Part shown: in pieces, positions 23,589 through 42,716 of the stretch
Layout of the letters: each line of letters begins with the position of its first letter
Position numbering within the stretch: position 1 is the stretch's first letter
NCBI GenBank assembly: GCA_025360715.1
Contig: JANYBS010000089.1
Location: forward strand, 1 to 50,543
Source: Candidatus Eiseniibacteriota bacterium
Lineage (GTDB): Bacteria > Eisenbacteria > RBG-16-71-46
DNA: 50,543 nt
Direction of reading: 5' to 3'
Notes under the pieces: generated by a model
The model's database searches: none
Told to the model about the DNA's origin: nothing
What the model saw: the letters and a program-made list of their open reading frames with translations, nothing else
Position numbers and translations under genes: made by a program

Positions 23589-25166
23589 TCAGCGCAGCAA
23601 GGGCAGCTTCACGCTCGCGTGTTCGGTGCCGGCCTCGAGCCGCGCCCAATAGAGCCCCGAAGGCATGGCGCTGCCGCCGTCGTCGGCGCCGTCCCACGAC
23701 ACCTGGTAGTCGGCTGGTGTCTGCGTGCGCGAGGGAAGCAGCTCGCGCACAAGGCGGCCGCGCACATCGTAGATGCGCAGGTGCGTCACGACCGTGGCGC
23801 TGAGCGTGTAGGACAGCACCACCGGCAGACGCGCCGGCAGCGGCTTGGCCGACAGCCGCACGGCCACGCCGGTCACGGGCGGCGGCGTGAGCGTGTCACC
23901 CACCCATGCGATGCGGTGCACGGAGCCCGTGTTGGCGAATGCGCCGTTCCACTGGCTCAGGTACCAGAGCTGATTGTCGGGCCCCACGCGGAAGTCCGCA
24001 GGATGCGCCAGGTTCGTGGCCCAATAGGCGGCGTCGCTCTGGCCCGCCACGGCGGGCGCCGTGCTCCAGGAACCGCCCTGCTTGGACAGCCGCCACATGC
24101 GGCCGCTGTAGTACTCGGAGAAGAACAGGTCGCCGTGATACTGCGCCGGCCAGCTGGGCAGCGCGCCATCGGCGCTCTGATACGCGCCGGCGCTGATGAT
24201 CGCCGCGCCGCCTTGCGCGGAGCGGTCGACCACGAAGACCGGAGCCGCCAAGGCGGGCTCGCTGCCCGTGCAGGTCGAATAGCCGGCGTTGCCCTCGCGC
24301 CACGGCCAGCCGAAGTTCGAAGCGGCCGGCGCCGCGCCCGCCGATGCGCCGGGCATCGCGAGCAGGTCCAGCTCTTCATAGGTGTCCTGCCCCACGTCGC
24401 CGATCACGAGCCAGCGGCGCACGGGATCGATCTGGAAGCGAAAGGGATTGCGCAGGCCGTACGCGTAGACCAAGCACTGGTTGCTATCGGCGACTGCGGC
24501 GTAGGGATTATCCGCGGGCGTGATCTGCGCGCGGATCGCCGCGCCCGGCCCCGGCGGCAGGCTCCGCACGTCGAGCCGCAGGATCTTGCCTTTGAGCTGG
24601 GTCACGTCCTGTGCGCCGCACGGATCGGCGTCCTCGCCCAGGCTCACGTACAGCATGCTGTCGGGCCCGAAGCGCACCGTGCCGCCATTGTGGTTCGCAG
24701 CCTGGTTCGGGATGTCGGTGATAAGCTCGTACGCCGAAGCGGGGTCGGCGGTCATCTGGCCATCGCCGGTGCCTGCAAGGTCGCCCGTGAGCGTCCAGCG
24801 CGTGATGTGCAGGCGCTGGGCGGTGAGCGTCTCGTGCGTGTAGAGGTAAGGCTTCACGGGGAAACGCGGATCGAGCGCAACGCCCAGCAAGCCGAGCTCA
24901 CCACTGGTGATCACTTCGGGCACCGTGATGACCGGCGTGGAGAGCAGGGCGCCATGCGCGACGATCCGCACGGTCGCCTGCGCCTGCGTCGTGAACAGCA
25001 GCCGGCCATCGGGCGTGAACTCCAGCGCGCAAGGCTGGTCGATGCTGGATGCGATGATGGTGTCGGAGAAGCCGGTGGGCAGCGACTGCGCCGCCGCGGG
25101 CGTGACGAGACGACCAACAGCCAGGGCGGCGAACAGTATCGTGGCGATCGAGAGGATGCGGCGCAT
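23589..25166 (-). CDS. Secreted glucose/sorbosone dehydrogenase-like propeller with C-terminal sorting-type domain
   Basis: About 525 residues. Signal peptide at 1-26 (ILSIATILFAALAVG...AAAQ). The body is a six-bladed propeller of the PQQ-dependent soluble sugar dehydrogenase (GSDH) family, with ELGLLGVALDPRFP, NHNGGTVRFGPDSMLYVSLG and YGLRNPFRFQIDP. From about residue 435 a FlgD-like / T9SS-type Ig domain follows (LRIYDVRGRLVREL, then SWDG, then MPSGLYWARLE). Start ATG 25166: upstream open frame only mirrors the divergent oxidase gene, and TATGCT sits 6 nt before. Sugar oxidation and PQQ use are inferred from family. Confidence 0.87.
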   Translation of the reverse strand: MRRILSIATILFAALAVGRLVTPAAAQSLPTGFSDTIIASSIDQPCALEFTPDGRLLFTTQAQATVRIVAHGALLSTPVITVPEVITSGELGLLGVALDPRFPVKPYLYTHETLTAQRLHITRWTLTGDLAGTGDGQMTADPASAYELITDIPNQAANHNGGTVRFGPDSMLYVSLGEDADPCGAQDVTQLKGKILRLDVRSLPPGPGAAIRAQITPADNPYAAVADSNQCLVYAYGLRNPFRFQIDPVRRWLVIGDVGQDTYEELDLLAMPGASAGAAPAASNFGWPWREGNAGYSTCTGSEPALAAPVFVVDRSAQGGAAIISAGAYQSADGALPSWPAQYHGDLFFSEYYSGRMWRLSKQGGSWSTAPAVAGQSDAAYWATNLAHPADFRVGPDNQLWYLSQWNGAFANTGSVHRIAWVGDTLTPPPVTGVAVRLSAKPLPARLPVVLSYTLSATVVTHLRIYDVRGRLVRELLPSRTQTPADYQVSWDGADDGGSAMPSGLYWARLEAGTEHASVKLPLLR

Positions 25167-25172
25167 GGCGGC

Positions 25173-25178
25173 AGCATA
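25173..25178 (-). promoter_or_regulatory. Putative -10 element TATGCT, leaderless type
   Basis: TATGCT on the minus strand ends 6 nt before ATG 25166. The same hexamer precedes the gene starting at 35488. Confidence 0.5.
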
Positions 25179-25271
25179 GCGCAGACGGCTGCGTGCGTGG
25201 GATATTGCGCGGCACCGCGAACACGGCCACAGGCCATGCTTCGGCAACCCATTCTCCATCCCGGAGCGATC

Positions 25272-26429
25272 ATGGCGTCCGCACCGCAGCCCAAAGCCTT
25301 CCACACGCTGGTGATCGGCGGCGGCGTCGCTGGCCTGGCCACCGCGTGGCAGCTCGCGCGCACGGGCGGTGAGCGCATCGGTGTGGTCGAACGCTTCCGC
25401 CTGGGCCACGCCCACGGCAGCTCTCACGGCGCCGGGCGTATCACGCGCACCTCTTACACCGACAGCGTCTACATGCGACTCGCGCAGCTGGCGCATGTCG
25501 AGGAATGGCCGCGGCTCGAACGCGACGCGGGCATGAAACTGATTCATCCATGCGACGGCGCGTTCTTCGGGCCCGCCGGCAGCGCATTCGACAGCTATGT
25601 GGCCGCGGCCGCCGAGGTGGATGCCGGCGTGGAACTGATCGACGTGGCCGAAGCCCGGCGCCGCTTCCCGCTCTTTCGCTTCCCCGACGCCGCAGGGGTG
25701 CTGCACGATCACACCGCCGGCGTGGTAGCTGCCGATGGCACCATCCGCGCGCTCGCCACGCGCTGCTCGGTGGAAGGCGTCTTCACGCTCGAGGAGACGC
25801 GCGTGCTGGGCATCGACCCTTCGCGCGATCCGATCGTGATCGAGACCGATCGCGGGCAGCTGCTCGCCGAGCGGCTGGTGATCACCGCCGGCGCCTGGCT
25901 GCCAGCGCTGCGGCCCGAGTTCGCGCCACGGCTCACCGTGCGCCGGCAGAGCGTGGGCTACTTCCAGCTCGATGCGCCCGCCGCGGCGGTGCAGCCCGGC
26001 GCGTTCCCGGTGTGGATCCACACCGGCTCACCGGATAACAGCTACGGCTACTACGGCCTGCCCGAGTTCGGCGTGGCCGGCATCAAGGCCGGGCATCATC
26101 AGACCGGTGGCGCCTCGCAGGATCCGGACGGCGATGCCGCCGCAGACGCCCAGACGCTCGCGCACATCCAGGCTTTCTTGCACGAACAACTGAGCGTTCC
26201 GGTGATCGCGCGCGTTCACGCGGAGACGTGCCTGTACACGAACACCGACGATGAGGACTTCATCCTGGGCCGCCTGCCCGGCGATCCACGCATCGTGATC
26301 GGCTCGCCGTGCTCGGGGCACGGTTTCAAGTTCGCGCCGCTCACCGGCCGCATCCTCGCCGAGCTCTCGCGCGATGGCGTGACCACCGTGCCCGCGTTCG
26401 AAGCCGCGCGCGAGCGCTTCGCGATCTGA
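25272..26429 (+). CDS. N-methyltryptophan / sarcosine oxidase-like flavoenzyme
   Basis: About 385 residues, the normal length of monomeric sarcosine oxidase (MSOX) and SolA. N-terminal FAD motif VIGGGVAGLATAWQLA with an acidic VVERF, then the SSHGAGRITR segment. C347 in GSPCSGHGFKFAP is at the place of the Cys that binds FAD covalently in MSOX. It oxidises N-methyl amino acids to the amine and formaldehyde, making H2O2. ATG 25272 has GGAG 5 nt upstream and begins 15 residues before the FAD motif. Convergent with the next gene. Confidence 0.92.
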   Translation: MASAPQPKAFHTLVIGGGVAGLATAWQLARTGGERIGVVERFRLGHAHGSSHGAGRITRTSYTDSVYMRLAQLAHVEEWPRLERDAGMKLIHPCDGAFFGPAGSAFDSYVAAAAEVDAGVELIDVAEARRRFPLFRFPDAAGVLHDHTAGVVAADGTIRALATRCSVEGVFTLEETRVLGIDPSRDPIVIETDRGQLLAERLVITAGAWLPALRPEFAPRLTVRRQSVGYFQLDAPAAAVQPGAFPVWIHTGSPDNSYGYYGLPEFGVAGIKAGHHQTGGASQDPDGDAAADAQTLAHIQAFLHEQLSVPVIARVHAETCLYTNTDDEDFILGRLPGDPRIVIGSPCSGHGFKFAPLTGRILAELSRDGVTTVPAFEAARERFAI

Positions 26430-30861: not shown

Positions 30862-32625
30862 TCAGCGCACCGGTGCCGCGAGCGAGTCCCTCGGCGCCAC
30901 GCTCGCCTGCAGCAACGCATGCGCATCGGCGCGGCACCGCTCGTTCTCGGCGCGCCTGGGCACGAGCGCGCACGCCTTCGCCGCCGCCGCCTCGGCCTCG
31001 CCGAGCAGGCTGTCGCGCAGGCTGTCGCGCGTGCTGTCGCGCACGTCGTCGCGCCTGCCGTCGCGCGCGCCGCTGCCGGCCTGGCTCGCCGCGAGCAGCG
31101 AGGCTGCGCGCCAGCGCCAGAGCTCATCGTCGGCCGGCGGCCTTGCCACCATGCGGGCACTGTGCGCGAGCGCCACGTCGAGCGCTGCCGCGCGCGTGGC
31201 GGCATCGCCCGCGGGCTGCATGAGGGCGGCGCGCGTGATGGCGGCCTCGCGCAGCGCGCGCATCTCGGGGATGGCCTGTGCGAGCGCCTCGGCCACCAGC
31301 AGAGCCGCGAGCACGAGCGAGACGCGCCGCGCGCGCGATGGCGGGCGCGCGGCCACATACGCGATATCGGGCACGGCGACTCCGGTGCACACGACCATCG
31401 CACCCAGAACCGTGAACGCTGCAGCGCCCGCCAGGCCGGTCACGTTGAGCGCGCCGGCGACCGTGAGCGCCAGGAGCGGCGGCGCCAGTGTTGCGCGCGC
31501 CACGCGATCGCCGGTGGATCCCCAGGCGCGCGCAAGGCATACGAGCCACGCGCTGCCCGTGACCACGCCCGCGATGCCCAATGTGGCCAGCACTTGAAGT
31601 GGCACCGCGTGCGCGTGCAGCGGAGTTCCCAACGTCTCACGCATGCCAGAAGCAAGGCCGGTGGCGCGGGCCGCCTGAGCGAACAGCAGGCCGAAAGTGT
31701 CAGGGCCGCCACCCGTGAGCAGATGCTCGCGGGCGATCTGGAGCGCCACGCGCGCCAGATCGACACGCGCGGGCAGCGAAGTCGCACCGGCCGATGTGTG
31801 CTCGATGGCGCGCGCGAGCACGCCAGCGCGTGCCACGAATGCTGCCCAGAGCAGGGCCGGTACCAGCGCCAGCGCCGCCGCCCGCACCGCCCGCATGCGC
31901 GATGTCGTATCGGCTGCACTTGCCATCACGACAGCAACGATCACGCCGGCCGCCCCCGCCAGCCAGGCACCACGCGAGAGCGTGGCCACCAGTATCACGG
32001 CGATCAGGCCGATCGCGGGTCCCAGCCAGACCAGCGACACCTTCGGCCGGGCCGCGCGCGCGACGGCTGCCGAGAGCGCCGCCGCCATCACCACGCCAAG
32101 CAGATTCGCGTTGCCAACGCTTGCTCCTGGGCGCAGGAACACGATGCCGCCTGCGGGATAGCGCGCCACCTGCTCCCATGCGAGTGGATCGCGGCCCGCG
32201 AGCTGAGCCAAGGCATAACACGCCGCCATCGCGCACGCACCGAGCCACCATGTGAGCGTGCCCTCACGGGCCGCGGCCTGAGCGTGCGTGCGCCGCGACC
32301 CGGCGTACAACCCCGCCAATGAAAGCGTGGTGAGCACGCCTTCACGTTGTGAGATCTCACCGAGCAGGCTCAGATGCGGCGCCGTCGAGCGCAATGCCGA
32401 GATCACACTGGCCAGCACCCAGGCCAGCACTGCGAAGTCGAGCGGTTGCGCGGGGCCGGCGCCCTGCGGAGACCGGCGATCCGCGTCCCACTCCAGCAGC
32501 GCCCATGCGAGCAAAGGCAGCCCGAGCAACCGCAATAGTGCCGCCTTGAGCGGCATGAACGGGTCGAGCGCCCCGGGCAGGAACGCGAGCACGCTCGATA
32601 CCAGTGCCAGGCGAACCGCCCACAG
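30862..32625 (-). CDS. O-antigen ligase/polymerase-like membrane protein (Wzy/WaaL family)
   Basis: About 588 residues with some twelve transmembrane segments. The outer-loop region (AREHLLTGGGPDTFGLLFAQ and an LHAHAVPLQVLATLGI segment with His) is typical of the Wzy_C/O-antigen ligase superfamily, which joins or polymerises lipid-linked glycans outside the inner membrane. The start is uncertain: there is no ATG near the first helix. CTG 32625 is 11 nt after the upstream stop; GTG 32592 is the first standard alternative but would cut into helix 1. The soluble tail holds a four-residue RDSx repeat. It is the last gene of the nine-gene minus-strand run. Confidence 0.82.
   Translation of the reverse strand: MWAVRLALVSSVLAFLPGALDPFMPLKAALLRLLGLPLLAWALLEWDADRRSPQGAGPAQPLDFAVLAWVLASVISALRSTAPHLSLLGEISQREGVLTTLSLAGLYAGSRRTHAQAAAREGTLTWWLGACAMAACYALAQLAGRDPLAWEQVARYPAGGIVFLRPGASVGNANLLGVVMAAALSAAVARAARPKVSLVWLGPAIGLIAVILVATLSRGAWLAGAAGVIVAVVMASAADTTSRMRAVRAAALALVPALLWAAFVARAGVLARAIEHTSAGATSLPARVDLARVALQIAREHLLTGGGPDTFGLLFAQAARATGLASGMRETLGTPLHAHAVPLQVLATLGIAGVVTGSAWLVCLARAWGSTGDRVARATLAPPLLALTVAGALNVTGLAGAAAFTVLGAMVVCTGVAVPDIAYVAARPPSRARRVSLVLAALLVAEALAQAIPEMRALREAAITRAALMQPAGDAATRAAALDVALAHSARMVARPPADDELWRWRAASLLAASQAGSGARDGRRDDVRDSTRDSLRDSLLGEAEAAAAKACALVPRRAENERCRADAHALLQASVAPRDSLAAPVR
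31010..31069. repeat. Five tandem 12-bp units coding for RDSx repeats
   Basis: Units of the form CTGTCGCGCNNG at 31010, 31022, 31034, 31046 and 31058, the last two diverged. On the coding (minus) strand they encode RDGR-RDDV-RDST-RDSL-RDSL in the cytoplasmic or periplasmic tail of the ligase-like protein. The unit is a whole number of codons, so copy-number change would keep the frame. Confidence 0.85.
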
Positions 32626-32636
32626 CGGCGCGCGGG

Positions 32637-34067
32637 CTATCGGACCACCGCTACGCGCTGCACAGCACTGTTGCCATCGCGATCGCGCACACGCACGAAA
32701 TAGATACCCGGCGGTGCCGCGCGCCCATCGGCGCCCGCGCCGCTCCAGAGCCAGTGGCCACTCGCGGCGTCGGCCGAAGTCGCGCCCGAGATTCGGCGGC
32801 CGCGCGCATCGAGTACCTCGATGTCGAGGTGGCCCGCCCCCCCACGCCAGGATGCCTGCACCGGGCCGCGCGCGGGATCGGGGGTGAGCACCAGGTGCAG
32901 GGGCGCGCCTGGCACCATCGGCGGCGACGCCACCCCGACGGCGCCCGTCGGAGTACCGATGAGTCGCATGCTCAACGCGCGCGCCGGCACTTGCGTCCAC
33001 GCGCCATTCGCGCTCCTGCGCGCATACAAAGGCCCGATGGCGTTCTGGAAGTCACTGCTCTCGGCACCGGTGATCACGCGGGTACGGAAACTGTAGTCGT
33101 GCAGCGTTCGCAGCAGCACCCAGTAGTCATGATCGGGCATGAGTACCGGAAGCTGGTCGAAGTCCGTGTGCGAGACCCACTGCGGCAGCGCTGGCGGCTG
33201 ACCGAAGGTCGCCGCTGCCGCCGTCGCCGCGAATACGCCCACCGGCAGCGCCTGGACTCCGTCCGCGATCTGCACCACACCGGCGGGGCGGGCAAGATCC
33301 GCCGAGAGCGGATCGTCCATCGCGAACTCGCACCACGACAACTGCAGCGCGACCGGCACGCGCACGCGCTGAGCGATCTCGTACCACGTCGTATCCAGCA
33401 CACTGTTCGCGGTCATCACGCTCTGGCCGAGCACGAGCGCCTGGGTGGCCGCATCGCCCGCGCACGTGCCATACGAGAGCACGGGGTGCGCGCCGGGCAG
33501 CGGCACGCGGGCCGCGGGCGTGGCGATCGGGTAGGTCCACGCCGAAGGCATGCTGAGCGGACCCGAGTGATCGTACGAGATACTCTCGCCGCCGCTCAGG
33601 AACGAGGGTCCGTTCAGATCGAGCGCGTAGTGAGCGGCCGGAGGATCGGCCAGATGCCCCACACGCCTCGTCACGACGGGACGGCTGCCCAGGTCGACGC
33701 GCAGGTGGTTGATCTGGAGCGCCGAGATACTGTACGGAAACCATCGCAACGGAACGCTCGACGCGTCGGCCGTCTGCGCCGCGGCGTCCCAGACGACGAT
33801 GCGCGCATCGGCTCGATCGTTGTAGACCGGTTGCACTCGCAGGCTGCAAGCTTGGACGTTGGTGGTGGGATCGAAGGGTTGCGCGACGCCCCAGTACCGC
33901 GCCATCGGGAACACATCGTTCGCGGGGCTGCAGACGAGCGCGCTGTCGCAAGAGTCGGCTGCGGCCACGCCCGAAGCGCCCCCGCGCATGCCAGCCGCCG
34001 CGGCGAAGACCAACGCCATCGCGCCCAGGCTCGGCAGCGCGCGCAGCAACCTCCCAGGCGCGCTCAT
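32637..34067 (-). CDS. Secreted protein with FlgD-like C-terminal domain, paralogue B
   Basis: 476 residues. N-terminal hydrophobic signal (LPSLGAMALVFAAAAG), then a Cys-containing stretch and QPFDPTTNVQACSLRV. I do not recognise the central 330 residues, but they match the upstream neighbour throughout. Shared segments include HLRVDLGSRPVVT, ADPP, GAESSDF.N.IGPL and RALSMR.IGTP. The last 85 residues are a FlgD-like Ig domain (DIEVLDARGRRISG, WLWSGAGADGR, PPGIYFVRV, ending in an Arg after a beta strand), as used for outer-membrane anchoring or sorting in FCB bacteria. Its ATG overlaps the stop of its paralogue (ATGA). Confidence 0.82.
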   Translation of the reverse strand: MSAPGRLLRALPSLGAMALVFAAAAGMRGGASGVAAADSCDSALVCSPANDVFPMARYWGVAQPFDPTTNVQACSLRVQPVYNDRADARIVVWDAAAQTADASSVPLRWFPYSISALQINHLRVDLGSRPVVTRRVGHLADPPAAHYALDLNGPSFLSGGESISYDHSGPLSMPSAWTYPIATPAARVPLPGAHPVLSYGTCAGDAATQALVLGQSVMTANSVLDTTWYEIAQRVRVPVALQLSWCEFAMDDPLSADLARPAGVVQIADGVQALPVGVFAATAAAATFGQPPALPQWVSHTDFDQLPVLMPDHDYWVLLRTLHDYSFRTRVITGAESSDFQNAIGPLYARRSANGAWTQVPARALSMRLIGTPTGAVGVASPPMVPGAPLHLVLTPDPARGPVQASWRGGAGHLDIEVLDARGRRISGATSADAASGHWLWSGAGADGRAAPPGIYFVRVRDRDGNSAVQRVAVVR

Positions 34068-35488
34068 CGCACCACCGTCACGCGTTGCACTGCAGCTCCG
34101 CCTGCATCATCACGCATGCGCACGAAGTACAGCCCGGGAGGCGCAACGCGGCCGTCGGCCGATGCGCCACTCCAGAGCCAGCGGCCGCTGCGTGCAGCGG
34201 ACAACGTCGCGCCGCTCACACGCCGGCCGCGCGCATCGAGGACGTCGATGCTCGCGCGCCCCGATCCGCCGCTCCACGAAGCGAACACGGCGCCGCGCGA
34301 GGGATTCGGCGAAAGCGAAAGCTTGAGCCCTGCGCCCGGCGCGAGTGGCGGCTGTGGTACGTCGACGCTCGTGAGCGGCGTGCCGATGATGCGCATGCTC
34401 AACGCGCGCCCCGGGATCGGCACCCACGGCGCGTCGGGTCCCGTACGTCCGCACAGGGGGCCGATATCGTTCACGAAGTCCGAGCTTTCGGCGCCCGACA
34501 GCACGCGCGCACGAAGCCGCATCAGATGATTCGTGCGCACCAGAAGCGCGTAGGCATGGCCCGATCGCAGCGACGGCTGCACATCGAAATCCAGATGCGA
34601 CGTCCACTGCGGCAACGGGTCGAACGCCGCCGGCATGAGCGCTTCCCCTATCGGCGTGCCTGAGCCGACACCGCCCGCAGCGACGTCGAGCACCCGGACC
34701 AAGCCATTGTTCACGTAGTAGTCGTAAGAGTCCGCGAACGGCGGATCTTGGGCGAACTCGGCGAATTGCATCGAGACATTTGCGGGCACCTGGAAGGGTT
34801 GGCAGAACTCGAACCACGACGTGTCGAGCGCCGCGTTCGCCGTCATCACGCACTGCGCGAGGAGCAGAGCCTGCGCGGCAGCATCTCCAGGACACACGCC
34901 AAAGGAGATCACCGGATGCGGTCCCGCGACCGGCTGCCGGACGCCCGTGACGGTGGAGTACTCGAGCGCCCCGGGAACGGATGCCGGCCCCGCATGGTCG
35001 TAGTAGACCTGCTCACCATTCGCGAAGTAGTAAGCATTCGAGAAGTCGATCGCTAGCCGGCTTCGCGGCGGATCCGCGACGCGGCCCAGCCGTTTCGTCA
35101 CGACCGGGCGCGATCCGAGATCCACTCGCAGGTGGTTGTACTGCATGTGCGATGCGTCGTAGCTGAAGTAGCGCAGGACCGGCGTGCTGGCATCGGGCGC
35201 GCCCAAGGCATCATCCCAAGCAAGGATTCGGAAATCGTTGTGGTTGTAGCCGGTCATCACCCGCAGGCTGCACGACTGCACGTTCGTCGTGGGGTCGAAC
35301 GGCTGGGTGAGTCCCCACTGCGCGGCCAGCAGGTACGCATCATTCGTGTTCGAGACCACGGGATCGCACAGCGCCGCAGCCGTGTCCGGAACGCTCTGCG
35401 ATCGCATGCCGGCCGCAGCGGCGAAGATCAGCCCCAGGACGACCAGCGACGGGATGAAACGCAGGGCCCGGCGAAAGCGATGCCACAT
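34064..35488 (-). CDS. Secreted protein with FlgD-like C-terminal domain, paralogue A
   Basis: About 474 residues. Signal peptide with RFIPSLVVLGLIFAAAAG, almost the same as in the next gene. The central region has QPFDPTTNVQSCSLRV, HLRVDLGSRPVVTKRLG and SGAESSDFVNDIGPL; function unknown. The jelly-roll-like strand density would suit a carbohydrate- or surface-binding protein, but this is a guess. The C-terminal FlgD-like domain ends LYFVRMRDD...VTVVR. ATG 35488 has AAGGAG 6 nt upstream, and a TATGCT box stands about 47 nt before it, so a new transcript may start here. Confidence 0.84.
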   Translation of the reverse strand: MWHRFRRALRFIPSLVVLGLIFAAAAGMRSQSVPDTAAALCDPVVSNTNDAYLLAAQWGLTQPFDPTTNVQSCSLRVMTGYNHNDFRILAWDDALGAPDASTPVLRYFSYDASHMQYNHLRVDLGSRPVVTKRLGRVADPPRSRLAIDFSNAYYFANGEQVYYDHAGPASVPGALEYSTVTGVRQPVAGPHPVISFGVCPGDAAAQALLLAQCVMTANAALDTSWFEFCQPFQVPANVSMQFAEFAQDPPFADSYDYYVNNGLVRVLDVAAGGVGSGTPIGEALMPAAFDPLPQWTSHLDFDVQPSLRSGHAYALLVRTNHLMRLRARVLSGAESSDFVNDIGPLCGRTGPDAPWVPIPGRALSMRIIGTPLTSVDVPQPPLAPGAGLKLSLSPNPSRGAVFASWSGGSGRASIDVLDARGRRVSGATLSAARSGRWLWSGASADGRVAPPGLYFVRMRDDAGGAAVQRVTVVR

Positions 35489-35535
35489 CGGGAACTCCTT
35501 ACGAAGACGGCGAGGGCGGCTCCTCGCACGCATCG

Positions 35536-35541
35536 AGCATA
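35536..35541 (-). promoter_or_regulatory. Putative -10 element TATGCT inside the cluster
   Basis: TATGCT on the minus strand lies in the 82-bp gap after the sugar dehydrogenase stop (35571), 47 nt before ATG 35488. It could let the paralogue pair and ligase-like gene be transcribed apart from the acylation genes. Confidence 0.4.
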
Positions 35542-35570
35542 GCCCGCCTGCCGGCTTGCCGAAAGGGCGT

Positions 35571-36731
35571 TCAGCGCCCCCGGGAAGGAGCCCGGGCGAG
35601 CCGCAGCAACGCCCCGCGCGGGTCGTGCGGGCCGCCCGTGGGCAACGACGCGCCGCGAACGAGCACGTACAGCGCGCCATCGGCGCTCACGCGGAGATCC
35701 ACAGGACCGGGCAGCAGCGTCTGCGCGAAAACGTGCGCGTGCGCCGGAGCTTCGGGCGCAAGCCAGCGGATCTCGCCCCGGCAGTAGTCGGCGAAGAAGT
35801 ACCGGCCCTCCCACTCGCGACCGAAAGCCATACGTTGCGGCGCATACCAGGCGCCACCGGTGATCGCGCAACCTTCCGTATGGTTGTACGCGAAGACGGG
35901 CGACATGAAGGCGGTGTCGCGCGCGGTGCCCTCGTGCAGCGGCCAGCCGTAGTCACCGCCGGCGACGCCGTCGTCGATCTCCTCGGCCTTGCTCCCGCCC
36001 ACATCGTTGACGAACATCCGCCCGGTCCCCGGATGGATATCGAACGTGAACGGGTTGCGCAGGCCCCGCGCCCAGATCGCGCGATAGCGGCCGGTGGCGA
36101 TATGCGCGAAGGGGCCATCGTCGGGGACGCCCCCCTGCGGCGTGATACGCAGGATCTTGCCGGCGGTGGACCGCAAGCTCTGCGCCGCTTCGCCTAGCTG
36201 CCCCTCGCCCGTGCTCGCGTAGAGCATGCCGTCGGGGCCGAAGCGCAATGCGCCGGCCACGTGCTGATGCGCGCTCTGCGCATCGCACTCGAACAGCACG
36301 CGCAGCGAACCCGGCACCATGGAATCGCCGGCGGCGGTCACGCGCGCGATCACGCTGTGGCGCGCGGGCGCCTGCGCCGTGTAGCACACGTACACGAGGG
36401 AATCGCGCGCGAAGGTGGGACTGAAGGCCACGCCGAGCAGACCCTCTTCCTCGAACGCCACCGTCGGGAACGTGCCGAACGCGCGCGGCAGCAGCTGGCC
36501 GCCGCGGATCACGCGCATACGACCCGCCTGCTCGCAGACGAACACGCGGCCATCGGGCGCGATCGCCATGCTCACGGGGCTGTCGAGCCCGCGCACGACC
36601 ACGCTCTGCTCAAAGCCCGCGGGCGGCACGGGCGCGGGCGCAGCCTGCACACGGACGACTGCGCCGAGCGCCAGCAGGCCCGCGACGGCAGGCCACTTCA
36701 CCCGCGTGCGACTACCTCCCGCCATCGTCAT
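35571..36731 (-). CDS. Secreted PQQ-type sugar dehydrogenase-like propeller
   Basis: About 386 residues. Short signal peptide (VAGLLALGAVVRVQA). Glucose/sorbosone dehydrogenase propeller: LDSPVSMAIAPDGRVFVCEQ, EEGLLGVAFSPTFARD, HVAGALRFGPDGMLYASTGE, ARGLRNPFTFDIHP, GWPLHEG. Unlike the 23.6-25.2 kb homologue it has no C-terminal sorting domain. It would oxidise a sugar or polyol in the periplasm. ATG 36731 lies 20 nt inside the end of the SGNH hydrolase gene, so it belongs to the same operon. ATG 36725 is an alternative start. Confidence 0.87.
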   Translation of the reverse strand: MTMAGGSRTRVKWPAVAGLLALGAVVRVQAAPAPVPPAGFEQSVVVRGLDSPVSMAIAPDGRVFVCEQAGRMRVIRGGQLLPRAFGTFPTVAFEEEGLLGVAFSPTFARDSLVYVCYTAQAPARHSVIARVTAAGDSMVPGSLRVLFECDAQSAHQHVAGALRFGPDGMLYASTGEGQLGEAAQSLRSTAGKILRITPQGGVPDDGPFAHIATGRYRAIWARGLRNPFTFDIHPGTGRMFVNDVGGSKAEEIDDGVAGGDYGWPLHEGTARDTAFMSPVFAYNHTEGCAITGGAWYAPQRMAFGREWEGRYFFADYCRGEIRWLAPEAPAHAHVFAQTLLPGPVDLRVSADGALYVLVRGASLPTGGPHDPRGALLRLARAPSRGR

Positions 36732-37521
36732 CGGCACTCCAGAGTGACAGTTCTGGCCGCCGCGCGAGGCGCCCGTCGCTCGTGCGCTGACCACGCAAGC
36801 CGGCCGCGATCCAGGAAGCAAGATGCTCGCACATCCACGCCCACTCCACCGCGATGCGTTCGCCGAGCGAGGCCGCGCGCATGGGCGGCAACGGCTGCTG
36901 CCAGGTCGCATCGCTGCCTGGCAGCGCCAGCGCGTGCGCCAGCGCTGCAGCGATGCGCGCGTGCCCAGCGGCGTTCGCATGGATGCGATCGGCGGCCCAC
37001 AGGCGCGTGTCGACGGTGACGGGATAAGGCGCGAAGTCGACCAGCACCGCGCCGGTACGCGCGGCCGCCGCGCGCACCTCGCGCGCCAGCGCCTGCACGC
37101 GCGGCGTGAGTGCGCGCGCCAGCGGCATGACGGGCGCCAGGTCAGGCAGCGTGAATGTGAGCACACGCGCGCCATGCGCGATGCCAGCGGCGAACATCGC
37201 TTCAAGGTCCGCGGCGACCACGCGCGCATCGAACCGTGGCGCGAGCAGGTCATTGGTGCCCGCGAAGACGCTCAGCAGGTCCGGCTGCATCGCGAGCGCC
37301 GGCGCGAGTTGTTCGGCGCGAACCTCGCGCGTGCGCTTGCCGCGCACGGCGAGGTTCGCGTAGAGCAGGCCGCCGTGTGTCTCGTGCAGCCGCTGCGCGA
37401 GCCGATACGACCAACCGCGCAACTCGCCGCCTGGCGCGCGGTCCTCCATGCCTTCGGTGGAACTATCACCGATCGCCACATAGCGATACGCGCGTCGCTC
37501 ACTCGCCGGCGGCGTCACCAC
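36712..37521 (-). CDS. SGNH/GDSL-family hydrolase, cytoplasmic
   Basis: 269 residues, GTG start overlapping the P450 stop by 7 nt. Block I is AIGDSSTEG with the nucleophile Ser, block III is AGTNDLLAP (Gly and Asn of the oxyanion hole), and block V is ADRIHANAAGH with the catalytic Asp and His. No signal peptide, so it acts inside the cell. SGNH enzymes remove or transfer acyl groups on sugars, lipids and thioesters; in this operon an acyl-glycan or acyl-carrier editing role is plausible but unproven. Confidence 0.92.
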   Translation of the reverse strand: MVTPPASERRAYRYVAIGDSSTEGMEDRAPGGELRGWSYRLAQRLHETHGGLLYANLAVRGKRTREVRAEQLAPALAMQPDLLSVFAGTNDLLAPRFDARVVAADLEAMFAAGIAHGARVLTFTLPDLAPVMPLARALTPRVQALAREVRAAAARTGAVLVDFAPYPVTVDTRLWAADRIHANAAGHARIAAALAHALALPGSDATWQQPLPPMRAASLGERIAVEWAWMCEHLASWIAAGLRGQRTSDGRLARRPELSLWSADDDGGR

Positions 37522-38777
37522 GTCACCGGCAGCGCCTCGAGACCGTGAAAGTGATACGTGTCGCGGTAGCGCGGCTGGCCATTCAGCCGCAAGCGCGGGA
37601 AGCGCTGGAATAGCAGCGGCAGCGCCATCTGCATCTCGAGCCGCGCCAGCGGCGCGCCCACACAGAAATGGATACCCGCGCCGAAGCTCACGTGTGGGTT
37701 GGGCGCGCGGCGCGGCCGGAACTCGTGCGGCGCCTCGAAACGCGCGGGATCCGCATTGGCAGCACCCAACAGCAGGCCAATTCTCTGCCCGCGCTCGAAG
37801 CGCGTGTTGTGAAACTCACAGGGCTCTAAGCAATAGCGCGTGAACAGGTGCAGCGGCGGATCGAAGCGCAGCAGTTCCTCCACACACGTAGCCGTGGCGG
37901 CGGGATCGGCGAAGGCGAGCTGCGTATCGATCTCGCGCTCGAGCAGTGTCTTCACGCCGTTGCCTAGCGCGTGCACGGTGGCCTCGTGGCCGGCGTTGAG
38001 CAGCAGGATGATCGTCGAGATGAGCTCGGCTTCCGAGAGACCTGCGTCATTCTCGCGCGCGTCGAGCAGCATGCCCACCAGATCGTCGGCGCCGGCATCT
38101 GCGCGACGCGTGCGCAGCAACTCGCGCACGTACGCCGAGAACTCATCGGTGGCGCGAGCGGCTTCGCGCTCGATCGTCTCATCGCGCCGCGCCTGATAGA
38201 TCGCCACCATGTCATGCGACCATGCCAGCAGCTGCGGCGCCATGGACTCCGGCACGCCGAGCATGCCAGCGATCACGCGCACGGGGATCGGCATCGCGAA
38301 GGCCGTCAGCAGATCCGCCTCGCCCTGCGGCGCGATGCCATCCAGGCACTGGCTCGCCACGTGCGCGATCCGCGGCCGCAGCTTCTCGATGACGCGGCCA
38401 AGGAACGCCGGATTCACGAGGCTACGGATGCGCGTGTGCTCCGGTGGTTCAAGCTCCAAAAGCGAATGGCGCTCGAACGCGGTCACGCTCGCCAGGTGCG
38501 CGGGCGGCTCCGGCCAGCCCAGCTCGGCGCGAGAGACCACCTGCGTGACCTGCCGGCCGAAGCGCCTGTCGCGCAAGAGCGCATTCACATCGGCGTGGGC
38601 GGCGAAGCACCAGTAGCCGTACTGCTGCCAGAAGAACATCGGCGCTTCGGCATGCATGCGCGCATACGTGAGCGCGGGCGCCTGCACGAATGCGTCCTCG
38701 CGCGGGTCCAGAGTCAGCACCCGCGTCGCTGCGTCGAACGCGAACGTGGCCGACGCGGTCGCTCGGGCGCCGCTCAT
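37515..38777 (-). CDS. Cytochrome P450
   Basis: About 420 residues, a soluble bacterial-type P450. The heme-binding Cys is C372 in FGAGIHFCVGAPLARLE. The K-helix ExxR is in CVEELLRFDPPLHLFTR, and the I-helix oxygen-activation motif reads LLNAGHEATVHA. In the last, the usual Thr directly after Glu is Ala and a Thr follows one place later, so proton delivery may differ. Substrate unknown. ATG 38777 overlaps the deacetylase stop (ATGA). Redox partners are not in the window. Its position in a glycan-modification operon suggests oxidation of an acyl chain or lipid rather than general detoxification. Confidence 0.94.
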   Translation of the reverse strand: MSGARATASATFAFDAATRVLTLDPREDAFVQAPALTYARMHAEAPMFFWQQYGYWCFAAHADVNALLRDRRFGRQVTQVVSRAELGWPEPPAHLASVTAFERHSLLELEPPEHTRIRSLVNPAFLGRVIEKLRPRIAHVASQCLDGIAPQGEADLLTAFAMPIPVRVIAGMLGVPESMAPQLLAWSHDMVAIYQARRDETIEREAARATDEFSAYVRELLRTRRADAGADDLVGMLLDARENDAGLSEAELISTIILLLNAGHEATVHALGNGVKTLLEREIDTQLAFADPAATATCVEELLRFDPPLHLFTRYCLEPCEFHNTRFERGQRIGLLLGAANADPARFEAPHEFRPRRAPNPHVSFGAGIHFCVGAPLARLEMQMALPLLFQRFPRLRLNGQPRYRDTYHFHGLEALPVTW

Positions 38778-39691
38778 GCGCCGGCCGCGGTGGTCACGCG
38801 TGTCATCTGGCTTGCTTGATAGCGCCAGCGCTCGCGCGGCGGATGCGCGGCGAGCACCGCCTGGCACGAGCCGAATGCGTAGCGCGCGAGCATGCGGCGC
38901 AGCTTGCGCTCGCAGTCCGCGATGCCGACGTAATACTGGAAGCCGCGCAGCCACGGCAGCGCCATGCGCGGCTGGTCCACGTCGATCTCGCGCGGGTGGA
39001 TGTACGCCATGACCGGGCGACTCGCTCGGTGATTCTGCGCGAAGCCGGCATCGGTGAGTGAGTCCGGGAACAGCCGCAAGTAGCCGCCGCCCGAGAACGG
39101 GATCGCGCGCCCGGCCACGTCCATGACCGAGACCGGGAAGAGTGTGAGCGTGCCGTGGTCGGTCTCGAGCCAGCACGCGTCGCGCGAGAAGCCCGCTACG
39201 CCGCCGTGCGTGCGAGCGGCCGGCACGATCGACGTATCGATGGTGAAGCCCAGCTCGGCCAATATCGGATACGCCCAGAAGGCCTCGCGCGTGATCGAGA
39301 ACCCCGGCGCGCGGAACGTGACCACGCTCTGGCCCGAGACATCTTCGAGCAATTTCTTGGCGCGATCGATCTCGGCGCGGAACGCCTGCGGCGTCTGTTC
39401 ATAGACGAGATGATGGTGATAACCATGGCAGCCCACCTCGTGGCCTTGATCGGCGATACGCCGCACCATCTGCGGGTAGCGCTCCGCGATCCAGCCGAGC
39501 GTGGGGAACGTGCCCTTGGCGCCTGCGTCACTGAGCAGCTGCAGGATCACATCGGTGTCACGTTCCACGCGCGAGGGCGCCGCATTCCACGTGGACGGAT
39601 CCGCCCACGGCGTCTCGACGGCGCACACATGGAACCATTCTTCAGTGTCCACGCAGAATGCATTCAGCGGGCCTGCCGTGCGATCGCTCAC
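38774..39691 (-). CDS. Polysaccharide deacetylase, XrtA-system type
   Basis: 305 residues, GTG start 3 nt after the acyltransferase stop. NodB-type fold of the exosortase/EPS-linked subfamily: FCVDTEEWFHV near the start supplies the metal Asp, HEVGCHGYHHHLVY the two metal His, and TFRAPGFSIT the substrate Arg. The C-terminal half (FSGGGYLRLFP, MAYIHPREID, YYVGIADCERKLRRML) is the DUF3473-like extension found with XrtA/PEP-CTERM loci. It removes acetyl from an N-acetylated sugar. No exosortase gene is present. A free amine made here could be the acceptor for the neighbouring acyltransferase. Confidence 0.93.
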   Translation of the reverse strand: MSDRTAGPLNAFCVDTEEWFHVCAVETPWADPSTWNAAPSRVERDTDVILQLLSDAGAKGTFPTLGWIAERYPQMVRRIADQGHEVGCHGYHHHLVYEQTPQAFRAEIDRAKKLLEDVSGQSVVTFRAPGFSITREAFWAYPILAELGFTIDTSIVPAARTHGGVAGFSRDACWLETDHGTLTLFPVSVMDVAGRAIPFSGGGYLRLFPDSLTDAGFAQNHRASRPVMAYIHPREIDVDQPRMALPWLRGFQYYVGIADCERKLRRMLARYAFGSCQAVLAAHPPRERWRYQASQMTRVTTAAGA

Positions 39692-39694
39692 GCG

Positions 39695-40744
39695 TCAGCC
39701 CTGCGCGCGGTCGGGCCGGGGAAAGCGCTTGATCACCCTTGCGGGATTGCCCTGCACCATCGTGTAGGGCGGCACGTCCGAGAAGACGACCGAGCCACTG
39801 ATCACCACGCTCGCCTTGCCCACGCGCACGCCGGGCATGACGACGGCGTTGATGCCGATGAAGCAGCTGTCTTCGAGCACCACCTCTTTGACGAGGTTCG
39901 GGATCAGGCCGGTCTCGCGCAGGTGATGCGGCGCCTTGAGGTGAGTCATGATCACCGAGCCCGCCGCGATGCGCACATCATTGCCGATGGTGATGTTCTC
40001 GGGATACGCGGTCTCGACGATCGCGGTGGGATCGATGAACACGCCGCTGCCCATCTTGACGCCACGCATGCGATGCAGCACCAGGATCACGCCGCGCGGG
40101 GCGATGCGCACGAGCAGGCCGAGGAGGTAGTTGCGAAAGAGATAATTCAGCGCGAGCGTGAAGGGATTCGTGCCGCGCTCGCGGGAGGAGACGAATACGT
40201 CCTTTAGCGCGCCGATGCGGCCTCCGGCCGCGCCTGAAGTGGCTGACGGGACGGTATTCGACGCGTTTGAGGGGTGCCCGGCTTGCGTCGACCCCACGCC
40301 TGCCTTCGCGCCGTGCTCGAGCGCCTGCTGCACGTCGCTCTCGCGGACGATCGCCAGGTGCTTGAATAACGCCACGTCGAGGCCCTTCTCGTCGATGAGC
40401 GCGCGGGCCTTCTTGGTGATGACCTGGGCACCGTTGCCGCCGCTGGCGGCGCTGCTCGCGCCAACCGCGGGCGCAGCGGGCGGCGGCACGACCACCGCGA
40501 ACGGTGTGTCGTGGATACGCGCGGCCAGCTCGCCGACCGCGATCTCCTCGCCCGCCGGGCAGACGATCTCGACGTAGCCCTCCACCTCGGCCTCGATCGT
40601 GTAGACCGTCTTGGCGGTCTCGATCTCGAACAGCAACTGCCCGGCGCGCACGCGCTCACCCGGCGCCGCGTGCCAGCGCACGAGCGTCACGATGTCGTCG
40701 TTCACGTTCTCCCTGGGCACCAACACCGACGCGGGCTCAGCCAC
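39695..40744 (-). CDS. Fused lipoyl domain, E3-binding domain and hexapeptide-repeat acyltransferase
   Basis: 349 residues, GTG start inside the last codons of the E1 gene (8-nt overlap). Residues 5-80 are a biotinyl/lipoyl domain with the carrier lysine K45 in EIETAKTVYTIEAEVEG. Residues 108-143 look like a peripheral subunit-binding domain (ITKKARALIDEKGLDVALF, then IVRESDVQQAL). A flexible Ala/Ser/Gly linker leads to residues 226-345, a left-handed beta-helix of hexapeptide repeats (FIDPTAIVE, ITIGNDVRIAAGSVIM, CFIGINAVVMPGVRVG, ending VQGNPARVIKRF). A normal E2 has a catalytic core of the CAT type at this place; here it is replaced by a sugar-acetyltransferase-like fold. Confidence 0.92.
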   Translation of the reverse strand: MAEPASVLVPRENVNDDIVTLVRWHAAPGERVRAGQLLFEIETAKTVYTIEAEVEGYVEIVCPAGEEIAVGELAARIHDTPFAVVVPPPAAPAVGASSAASGGNGAQVITKKARALIDEKGLDVALFKHLAIVRESDVQQALEHGAKAGVGSTQAGHPSNASNTVPSATSGAAGGRIGALKDVFVSSRERGTNPFTLALNYLFRNYLLGLLVRIAPRGVILVLHRMRGVKMGSGVFIDPTAIVETAYPENITIGNDVRIAAGSVIMTHLKAPHHLRETGLIPNLVKEVVLEDSCFIGINAVVMPGVRVGKASVVISGSVVFSDVPPYTMVQGNPARVIKRFPRPDRAQG

Positions 40745-42716
40745 GTGTCACCTCCCGGATCTTCTGGATGATCGACTCGGCCGTGGGCAGCGCTTGTGCT
40801 TCGAGCGGCCGCGCCGACGGGATCGGAACCGGCGCCGCGCTCACGCGCGCCACACGCACCGCATGCGGCAGCGCGAGTTCGGCGACCTGAGCCAGGATCT
40901 CGCTGCCCAGGCCGGCGAAGCCCTGGCCTTCCTCGGCCACGACCAGGCGCCTCGTCTGCATCAGGCTTTCGGCCAAGAATGTCGCGTCGAACGGATAGAG
41001 TTGCGTGGGCAGGAACAGGTCCACCAGCAACTCGTCTTCTTCGAGCACGTGCAACACCGCGCGCTCGGCTTCCACCGACAGCCCGCCGATCACGACCAGC
41101 GTCACGTCGGCCGGCCCTTCGGGCTGGAGCCGCGACGTGGGGAATCCCGCGCTGTCCTGCAACAGCTGGAAGCCCGGCGGCGGCGCGGCGTCGGCCTGAC
41201 ACGCGTAGAGCAGCTTGTTCTCCACGACGAGCGTCGGCAGCGGCTCCGCCTTTCGCAGCGCGGCATACAGCGCCGCCGGGCTCATGCGGTGATGCAGCGC
41301 CAGCACGCGCGTGCCCGGCGCGCCCACGAACAAGCGCTCCAGGCTCTGGCTGTGGGTGGGACCGTAACCACGATGGCCGCCCATGGGCGTGCGTACCGTG
41401 AGCGGTACCGTCACTTGATGGCGGTACATGCCCGCGAACTTGGCCGCGTGATTGATCCACTGATCCGTCGCCAGCGACAAGAAATCGCCGAACATGATCT
41501 CGGCGTACGGCCGGTAGCCCGCGAGCGCGAGGCCATTGCCCACGCCAATGATCGCGGCTTCTGAGATGGGCGCGTTGCGCACGCGGCCTGGAAACCGCGC
41601 GCTCAACTCCGCGGTGGCTTTGAACGCGCCACCATAGGGTGATTCCACGTCCTCGCCGAACACGATCGTGCGCGGGTCCTCGGCAAGCGCGCGCTCGAGC
41701 GCATCGCGCACCGACGTGACCACGCGCTGCTTCTCGAACGCCACCTTCGACCACACTGGTGCGGCCGCGCGCGGCGGCAGCGCGGGCATGGCGCCGTAGG
41801 GAGCAGCGTCGGCGCGCTTCACGGCCTGCGCCAGGCGCTCGTCGATCTGCGCGAGCGTGGTTCGCACCCACGCGTGATCGGCGTACCGCGCGAGCAGCAG
41901 GTTCAAGGGATCGCGCTCCTCGTAAGCCGCGATCTCGGCGGGCGCGCGGTCGTCGTCGCCCTTGGAGTGTGCGCGCAGGCGGTAGGTCTGCACGACATGG
42001 CAGTGCGGGCGGCCGCTCGTGCGCACGCGCGCGACGCTCGCTCCCATGCCGGTGACCAGTTCGTCCCACTGCCACGTGGCGCTGCGCGACGTGCCGATCC
42101 CGAACGCTTGGAAGCGCGCCTCGACGTCGCCTGCGAGCGTCTGGGTCCGCGCGGTGGACTGCGCGTAGCCATTGTCCTCGAGCACAATCAGCAGCGGCAG
42201 GTCCCAGCGCGAGGCGATGTTCAGGCTCTCGTAGAGCACGCCTTCACCAAGTGTGCCGTCGCCGATGCATACGACCGAGATGGCGTCGTGCTTGTCGAGC
42301 TGGTGCGCCAATCCAAGGCCCGTCGCGACAGGGGCGATGCCGCCTTGCACGCCGTTCGAGAAGAAGCGCTTGTGCTGCAGATGCTGGCTGCCGCCCAGAC
42401 CGCCGCACACGCCGCTGTCGCGGCCCATGACCTCGGCGATAAGCCCATCGACCTCATCGCAGTACGCCAGGAAGTGCCCGTGGCAGCGGTGGTTCGAGAA
42501 CCACGTGTCGCCCTCTTCGAGATACGCAGCGATGGCAGGCCCGGTGAACTCCTGGCCGATGCACGTGTGAACAGTGCCGAAGAGCTTGCCCTCGGAGAAC
42601 AGATGCAGCAGCCGCAGTTCGGTGTACCGGATCGTCAACGCCTGCCGCAGGACGCGCTCATGCGCGGCCAACACGCGCGCATCGTCCAGATCGGGAACGA
42701 ATGTCTCCGGCGACAT
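40737..42716 (-). CDS. Fused E1 alpha/beta 2-oxoacid dehydrogenase
   Basis: About 659 residues. The first half is an E1-alpha: NHRCHGHFLAYC, GGLGGSQHL and the thiamine diphosphate motif GDGTLGEG ... LEDNGYAQST at about 150-185. The second half, from about 330, is an E1-beta: VFGEDVESPYGGAFKAT, ISEAAIIGVGNGLALAG, GGHRGYGPTHSQSLE and a transketolase C-terminal domain. It decarboxylates a 2-oxo acid and passes the acyl group to a lipoyl arm. Pyruvate, branched-chain and other substrates cannot be separated by eye. No E3 gene is present. ATG 42716 is preferred to 42764, which adds a basic stretch. First gene of the cluster. Confidence 0.94.
   Translation of the reverse strand: MSPETFVPDLDDARVLAAHERVLRQALTIRYTELRLLHLFSEGKLFGTVHTCIGQEFTGPAIAAYLEEGDTWFSNHRCHGHFLAYCDEVDGLIAEVMGRDSGVCGGLGGSQHLQHKRFFSNGVQGGIAPVATGLGLAHQLDKHDAISVVCIGDGTLGEGVLYESLNIASRWDLPLLIVLEDNGYAQSTARTQTLAGDVEARFQAFGIGTSRSATWQWDELVTGMGASVARVRTSGRPHCHVVQTYRLRAHSKGDDDRAPAEIAAYEERDPLNLLLARYADHAWVRTTLAQIDERLAQAVKRADAAPYGAMPALPPRAAAPVWSKVAFEKQRVVTSVRDALERALAEDPRTIVFGEDVESPYGGAFKATAELSARFPGRVRNAPISEAAIIGVGNGLALAGYRPYAEIMFGDFLSLATDQWINHAAKFAGMYRHQVTVPLTVRTPMGGHRGYGPTHSQSLERLFVGAPGTRVLALHHRMSPAALYAALRKAEPLPTLVVENKLLYACQADAAPPPGFQLLQDSAGFPTSRLQPEGPADVTLVVIGGLSVEAERAVLHVLEEDELLVDLFLPTQLYPFDATFLAESLMQTRRLVVAEEGQGFAGLGSEILAQVAELALPHAVRVARVSAAPVPIPSARPLEAQALPTAESIIQKIREVTRG

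Follow-up and report, generated by a model that had tools for sequence, protein, structure and literature searches.

Organization of the locus

The window, i.e. the whole stretch of 50,543 nt that was analyzed, belongs to a genome of 4.29 Mb (G000) and carries on its minus strand a compact group of genes, listed here with their main features.

40737..42716, minus strand: fused E1 alpha-beta (thiamine diphosphate) of a ketose-phosphate/glycolyl-type clade, with the ThDP motif GDG...N
39695..40744, minus strand: lipoyl / PSBD-like / LbH acyltransferase fusion, composed of lipoyl (aa 1-80, with Lys45), PSBD-like (aa 106-147) and LbH (aa about 185-343, with the candidate catalytic His268) parts and Pro/Ala linkers
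40610..40612, minus strand: predicted lipoylated Lys45 codon, motif ET[SA]K, invariant in aligned type-A fusions
39941..39943, minus strand: His268 codon, M-x-H-[IL]-K-x-P, candidate LbH catalytic base, invariant in aligned type-A fusions
38774..39691, minus strand: CE4-type deacetylase (TIGR03006, XrtA-type polysaccharide deacetylase; DUF3473), signal peptide absent by eye
37515..38777, minus strand: cytochrome P450, translationally coupled here
36712..37521, minus strand: GDSL/SGNH hydrolase, same transcription unit
30862..36700, minus strand: probable rest of the transcription unit, with a GSDH homologue, two secreted paralogues and a Wzy_C O-antigen-ligase-like gene

The genes from E1 to SGNH look like one transcription unit, since they overlap (E1/fusion 8 nt, deacetylase/P450 4 nt, P450/SGNH 7 nt) or are separated by 3 nt (fusion/deacetylase); E1, fusion, deacetylase and P450 are thus arranged as described in the initial annotation. 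The E1 alpha and beta parts that it had named are present as one fused ORF of 659 aa, with the Pfam domains E1_dh, Transket_pyr and Transketolase_C. The fusion is also a single ORF (349 aa, Biotin_lipoyl at 4.8e-10 and Hexapep at 1.6e-9). The deacetylase (305 aa) passes the TIGR03006 cut-off, with 277.2 bits for a cut-off of 276.2, and the P450 (420 aa) has a profile match at 7.6e-30. Past the SGNH gene, the two secreted paralogues carry FlgD/Por-tail domains and lie on the same strand as E1. The window contains two GSDH-family genes, at 35571-36700 and 23589-26021, the latter encoding at its C-terminus a FlgD-like domain that resembles those of the secreted paralogues (32637-35500). A short 12/24-nt tandem repeat is found in the Wzy_C gene (window 31005-31072).

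When all six frames were scanned with profiles, no E2 core, ACP or PPTase was found in the 50 kb, and the fusion protein itself has no E2 core (PF00198, HxxxDG), in agreement with the earlier claim that this core is missing. A six-frame scan with profiles built from related loci found no glycosyltransferase in the 50 kb. As only the deacetylase and Wzy_C point to glycans, the strongly glycan-centered description first given of the window is not supported.

Elsewhere in the genome, lipA (truncated at a contig end), two dihydrolipoamide dehydrogenases over the cut-off and two canonical lipoyl-E2 proteins were identified. Lipoylation and reoxidation of a lipoyl arm are therefore available to the cell.

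E1 clade and likely substrate

It was initially supposed that E1 uses a 2-oxoacid. A search of plasmid records gave as nearest annotated relative RenH, from the renieramycin cluster (45% identity over 97%), with pyruvate and branched-chain E1s at only 30-36% identity. On the E1 tree, the E1s of NRPS clusters (RenH, L067, L077, L099 and L100) are placed inside or basal to the family of the window E1, which itself sits in the fusion-A clade (SH-aLRT 98). RenH is the renieramycin counterpart of NapB/NapD and QncN/QncL. Among homologues from related antibiotic pathways, SclQ and QncN/QncL/QncM are described as taking a C2 glycolyl unit from a ketose phosphate, e.g. xylulose-5-phosphate, to an ACP via a lipoyl protein (PMC6335953), and NapB/NapD as likewise obtaining from a ketose phosphate the C2 glycolyl unit that is loaded onto ACP (PMC7570522). 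By its sequence the window E1 is a member of this ketose-phosphate/glycolyl clade, the link to NapB/QncN running through RenH, and the 2-oxoacid supposition is not supported for this reason.

At least 95% of 81 family members share a set of E1 residues that differ from those of human PDH E1, among them H76, H81, Q111, Q124 and K252, as well as K366 and R449, which lie in the beta half. These basic or polar residues stand in for the PDH residues, several of them near cofactor-binding motifs. Because of this difference and of the kinship with the RenH clade, E1 probably carries a glycolyl group derived from a ketose phosphate rather than a 2-oxoacid acyl group.

The same direct transfer could be imagined with pyruvate, a lactate-derived or a branched 2-oxoacid as the substrate of E1, the sugar then receiving an acetyl or another acyl group. 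The E1 fold would fit, as would the best curated model for the window E1, which is pyruvate dehydrogenase E1 alpha (TIGR03182); yet its 181 bits are under half of the cut-off of 394, the clade contains the ketose-phosphate-type RenH, the residues cited above depart from PDH E1, and an acetyl-CoA-dependent LbH could acetylate with one gene. We regard this variant as unlikely.

Domains of the fusion protein

The initial annotation had described three domains, of which the lipoyl and hexapeptide parts are borne out. The lipoyl domain matches PF00364, contains the lipoylable Lys45 and has fold matches among PDB lipoyl domains; the LbH domain shows PF00132/PF14602 hexapeptide repeats and the invariant His268. 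Both residues are invariant in the 8 aligned type-A fusion rows. The "E3-binding" label given to the middle domain is softer: the fusion has no Pfam match to PF02817 even at E<=5, and the canonical E3-binding GTGxxGR loop is missing, as it is in RenI. This domain nevertheless gives a weak but collinear profile alignment to canonical PSBDs (hhalign) and is predicted as a helix-turn-helix (helix, short helix, helix; pLDDT 85-89), and is called PSBD-like here. The AlphaFold model of the full fusion, which used 8 alignment rows, is good for the lipoyl and PSBD-like parts; for LbH (mean pLDDT 65) it is too poor to support structural claims on the active site.

Distribution of E1 loci and fusion classes

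One genome per species was scanned with the window E1 and RenH as queries, and 80 E1 relatives were retained with their flanks. The gene downstream of E1 is nearly always a lipoyl protein, of several kinds. The commonest (52 loci, a count that includes RenI and a Nonomuraea locus) keeps a 2-oxoacid_dh E2 core. The architecture of the window, hereafter type A (lipoyl, PSBD-like and DapH-like LbH), is found at 9 further loci, at 42-56% identity, in Planctomycetota, Verrucomicrobiota, Acidobacteriota and Bacteroidota. Its recurrence at such identities in four further phyla indicates that the window fusion is not a chance product. Nine other loci carry lipoyl-LbH fusions of different classes: seven are type D (lipoyl plus a NeuD/PglD LbH with a PglD_N domain, one of them passing the NeuD curated cut-off), and L050 and L098 are single fusions to a WcaF-like and an EpsC/CysE-like LbH, respectively.

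These fusions are not one lineage: an E1 tree that unites all of them in a single clade is rejected (p-AU 3e-5), and the LbH domains of type A and those of type D form separate supported clades, type D grouping with free-standing NeuD-like genes. In our reading of these trees, an LbH acyltransferase carried on the lipoyl protein may have taken the place of E2 core and ACP on more than one occasion.

The fusion is rare and sporadic, as illustrated by the single carrier among 392 Planctomycetota sampled. No relative was found in the viral contigs scanned with the fusion protein, and in a plasmid tblastn no record spans 80% of the fusion, the matches being LbH genes only. Within the phylum of the window (a set of 47 genomes), none of the 46 other genomes examined carries E1 or fusion, and the module looks horizontally acquired. 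This absence would also suit a decayed or non-functional acquired cassette, a reading that we judge very improbable since the frames are open, the genes overlap and the catalytic residues are invariant across divergent copies.

Tailoring by P450 and SGNH, part of the first interpretation, finds no echo at the other loci, where neither gene is conserved. The P450 had been considered as a conserved partner of the module and was rejected on this ground. It has homologues of up to 58% identity in relatives without the module; as its closest kin (57-58%) occur in this way, it looks like a local addition. The SGNH gene showed no conservation with the module at other loci, and the genes past it are not conserved at the other fusion loci.

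Five Planctomycetota E1 genes (L033, L035, L041, L047 and L054) form a sister clade to that of the window. No lipoyl protein was recognised near them, in about 8-10 kb of downstream flank, and three of the five have one secreted-looking downstream gene in common.

Carrier proteins at E2-core and fusion loci

Carriers were detected with an iterated ACP profile, after two simple ACP motif scans had proved useless. An ACP or ACP-PPTase gene is present at 44 of the 52 E2-core loci and at none of the 18 fusion loci (Fisher p 6.7e-11). When the comparison is restricted to loci with at least 2.8 kb of downstream flank, the proportions are 39 of 46 and 0 of 16. Once kinship is taken into account, the contrast is reduced to 3-5 independent phylogenetic pairs, all in one direction, a number too small for significance (sign test p 0.25).

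At 32 E2-core loci, the product of the next gene contains an ACPS-type 4'-phosphopantetheinyl transferase domain (PF01648 in the representative), and in most copies the N-terminal part of this product matches the iterated ACP profile; other E2-core loci have a separate ACP. Directly behind the E2-core lipoyl gene, L037:4883-5722, L079:13280-14008 and about 30 more thus show what looks like a carrier joined to the enzyme that primes it. Eight E2-core loci are devoid of carrier: L103 is truncated and most of the others bear very long NRPS-looking ORFs. In Ruminiclostridium sufflavum, one protein of 2390 aa (L067:11926-19098) starts with lipoyl and E2 core and is then very long, probably NRPS.

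Lipoyl arms usually give their acyl group to CoA, and to ACP in a few antibiotic pathways. Free-standing LbH acyltransferases take acyl-CoA, and LpxA/LpxD take acyl-ACP. It could be argued that the fused LbH uses acetyl- or acyl-CoA, the lipoyl/PSBD part only docking E1 and E3, or that an E2 from another locus passes the lipoyl-bound acyl group to CoA or ACP. Such a scheme has in its favor that this LbH retains, at its C-terminal end, the GNPA[RK]V motif typical of CoA-dependent members, and that the genome has two canonical lipoyl-E2 proteins. However, it leaves unexplained why several LbH classes are fused to the same lipoyl unit beside the same E1, and why the ACP-PPTase gene is absent exactly at fusion loci. 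It seems improbable to us. The direct transfer of the acyl group from lipoyl arm to LbH is, in our opinion, probable; its CoA-independence is putative, since the motif is retained and the fatty-acid ACP and CoA of the cell could act in trans.

Deacetylase, glycan context and acceptor

A deacetylase of the same kind as that of the window follows the type-A fusion at all 8 loci with enough flank, in addition to the window, compared to 2 of the 52 E2-core loci. Its role as a partner of the fusion, proposed from the window alone, is therefore a conserved one. Deacetylase homologues of 33-41% identity are common in the phylum of the window. The link is not confined to fusions, since two Nitrospirales E2-core loci, L043 (6195-7139) and L045 (1172-2107), have a deacetylase about 3 kb upstream of E1. 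At L042 (12950-14622), a second CE4 deacetylase and a formyltransferase separate the type-A fusion from the DUF3473-type deacetylase.

The expectation that homologous loci contain glycan genes holds in part. Several type-A loci are included in glycan clusters, with glycosyltransferase, Wzx-type flippase, UDP-GlcNAc 2-epimerase, heparinase-like and formyltransferase genes; at others (L031, L036 and L106) this context is thin. Type-D fusions occur in pseudaminic-acid-type operons: the gene order at L097 is PseB, PseC, PseF, E1, lipoyl-NeuD/PglD, aminotransferase, PseI/NeuB, and L105, from Rhodohalobacter, and L083, from Neolewinella marina, are similar. PseH normally acetylates the 4-amino sugar from acetyl-CoA. 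None was found over the cut-off in these three genomes, and the lipoyl-NeuD/PglD fusion appears, from gene order, to take its place. This position of the type-D fusion in the PseH slot supports sugar amines as acceptors.

Many LbH relatives, among them the WcaF, WbbJ and maltose/galactoside types that match the fused domain, are O-acetyltransferases, and glycolyl might instead be added to a sugar hydroxyl, the deacetylase acting on another residue. Against this, the N-acyltransferase models DapH and NeuD/PglD score as well or better on the LbH domain, and the deacetylase is tightly linked to the type-A fusion. O-acylation thus appears rather unlikely, with about one chance in four. We consider the odds even that the amine made by the deacetylase is the acceptor.

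Proposed mechanism and comparison with known systems

The explanation that we find best for these data, with a probability of roughly one half, is a carrier-free glycolyl-transfer module. As suggested by its clade, the thiamine E1 would cleave a ketose phosphate and hold the dihydroxyethyl unit. It would then reductively acylate the lipoyl arm on Lys45, giving glycolyl-dihydrolipoyl; that E1 loads this arm is very probable from the domain content. Without CoA or ACP as an intermediate, the arm would deliver glycolyl directly to the LbH that replaces the E2 core in this protein, and His268 would activate the acceptor, either a sugar amine or a hydroxyl. The adjacent deacetylase, whose linkage is conserved, would free the amine of an N-acetyl sugar linked to a nucleotide or lipid in the cytoplasm, the natural substrate for an enzyme in which no signal peptide is seen by eye. 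The ordinary dihydrolipoamide dehydrogenase of the genome would finally reoxidise the arm. In net terms, an N-acetyl group would be exchanged for an N-glycolyl group. The initial idea of a transfer from lipoyl arm to sugar via the fused LbH has thus gained comparative support, with glycolyl as the acyl group and without P450 and SGNH.

The module shares with Qnc (QncN/QncL/QncM), Nap (NapB/NapD/NapC), SclQ1-4 and RenH/RenI the E1 clade (through RenH), the gene order E1 then lipoyl protein, and a lipoyl domain type starting with VP[RK]xxxND(D), which is VPRxxxNDD in RenI; RenI and the window fusion also have in common a PSBD-like domain devoid of the GTGxxGR loop. It differs from them by an LbH in place of the 2-oxoacid_dh E2 core and by the lack of the ACP to which they transfer. 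The pyruvate and branched-chain 2-oxoacid dehydrogenase complexes resemble it in E1 fold, lipoyl domain and probable use of a shared E3, whereas the window has no E2 core, an E1 of a separate clade and no expected CoA product. With LbH of the NeuD/PglD/DapH/WcaF type it shares hexapeptide repeats, a catalytic-type histidine and GNPA[RK]V, the difference being the lipoyl carrier fused at the N-terminus. The pseudaminic pathway (PseB, PseC, PseH, PseG, PseI, PseF) is related through L097 and L105, in which E1 and lipoyl-NeuD/PglD lie inside such operons, and differs in that the acetyl-CoA-dependent PseH is not recognised and the fusion appears instead. No description of a lipoyl-LbH fusion was found in the literature searched, a collection lacking most subscription journals, and the system is not described in a review of DNA-alkylating products (PMC9570651), in "Flashy flagella" (PMC4875605) or in the lipocone paper (PMC12419801).

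The operon and the recurrent swaps suggest that some bacteria add a two-carbon group to sugars without CoA or ACP. More generally, and more tentatively, at slightly less than even odds, E2 core and ACP may have been exchanged repeatedly across phyla, within an E1 family that takes C2 units from ketose phosphates, for a lipoyl-fused LbH. Sugar amines would then receive glycolyl originating in the pentose-phosphate pool, without the help of CoA or ACP. If true, glycan acylation would have a third acyl-donor system, linked to the metabolism of thiamine, lipoate and sugar phosphates. The known N-acetyl hydroxylases are CMAH and NamH; the module would allow N-glycolyl sugars of bacterial surface glycans, including nonulosonic acids, to be made without a hydroxylase. 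Such sugars would then be predicted in bacteria without CMAH/NamH, with a gene signature for finding them. As the pseudaminic-type operons supply known acceptors, the idea is directly testable.

Two minor observations concern the E2-core loci. The L037 record is titled as a Klebsiella pneumoniae MAG, but its sequence groups with Verrucomicrobia and looks misassigned. The E2-core proteins L037:3451-4872 and L039:6515-7894 have a C-terminal tail with paired CxxC motifs, which is zinc-ribbon-like.
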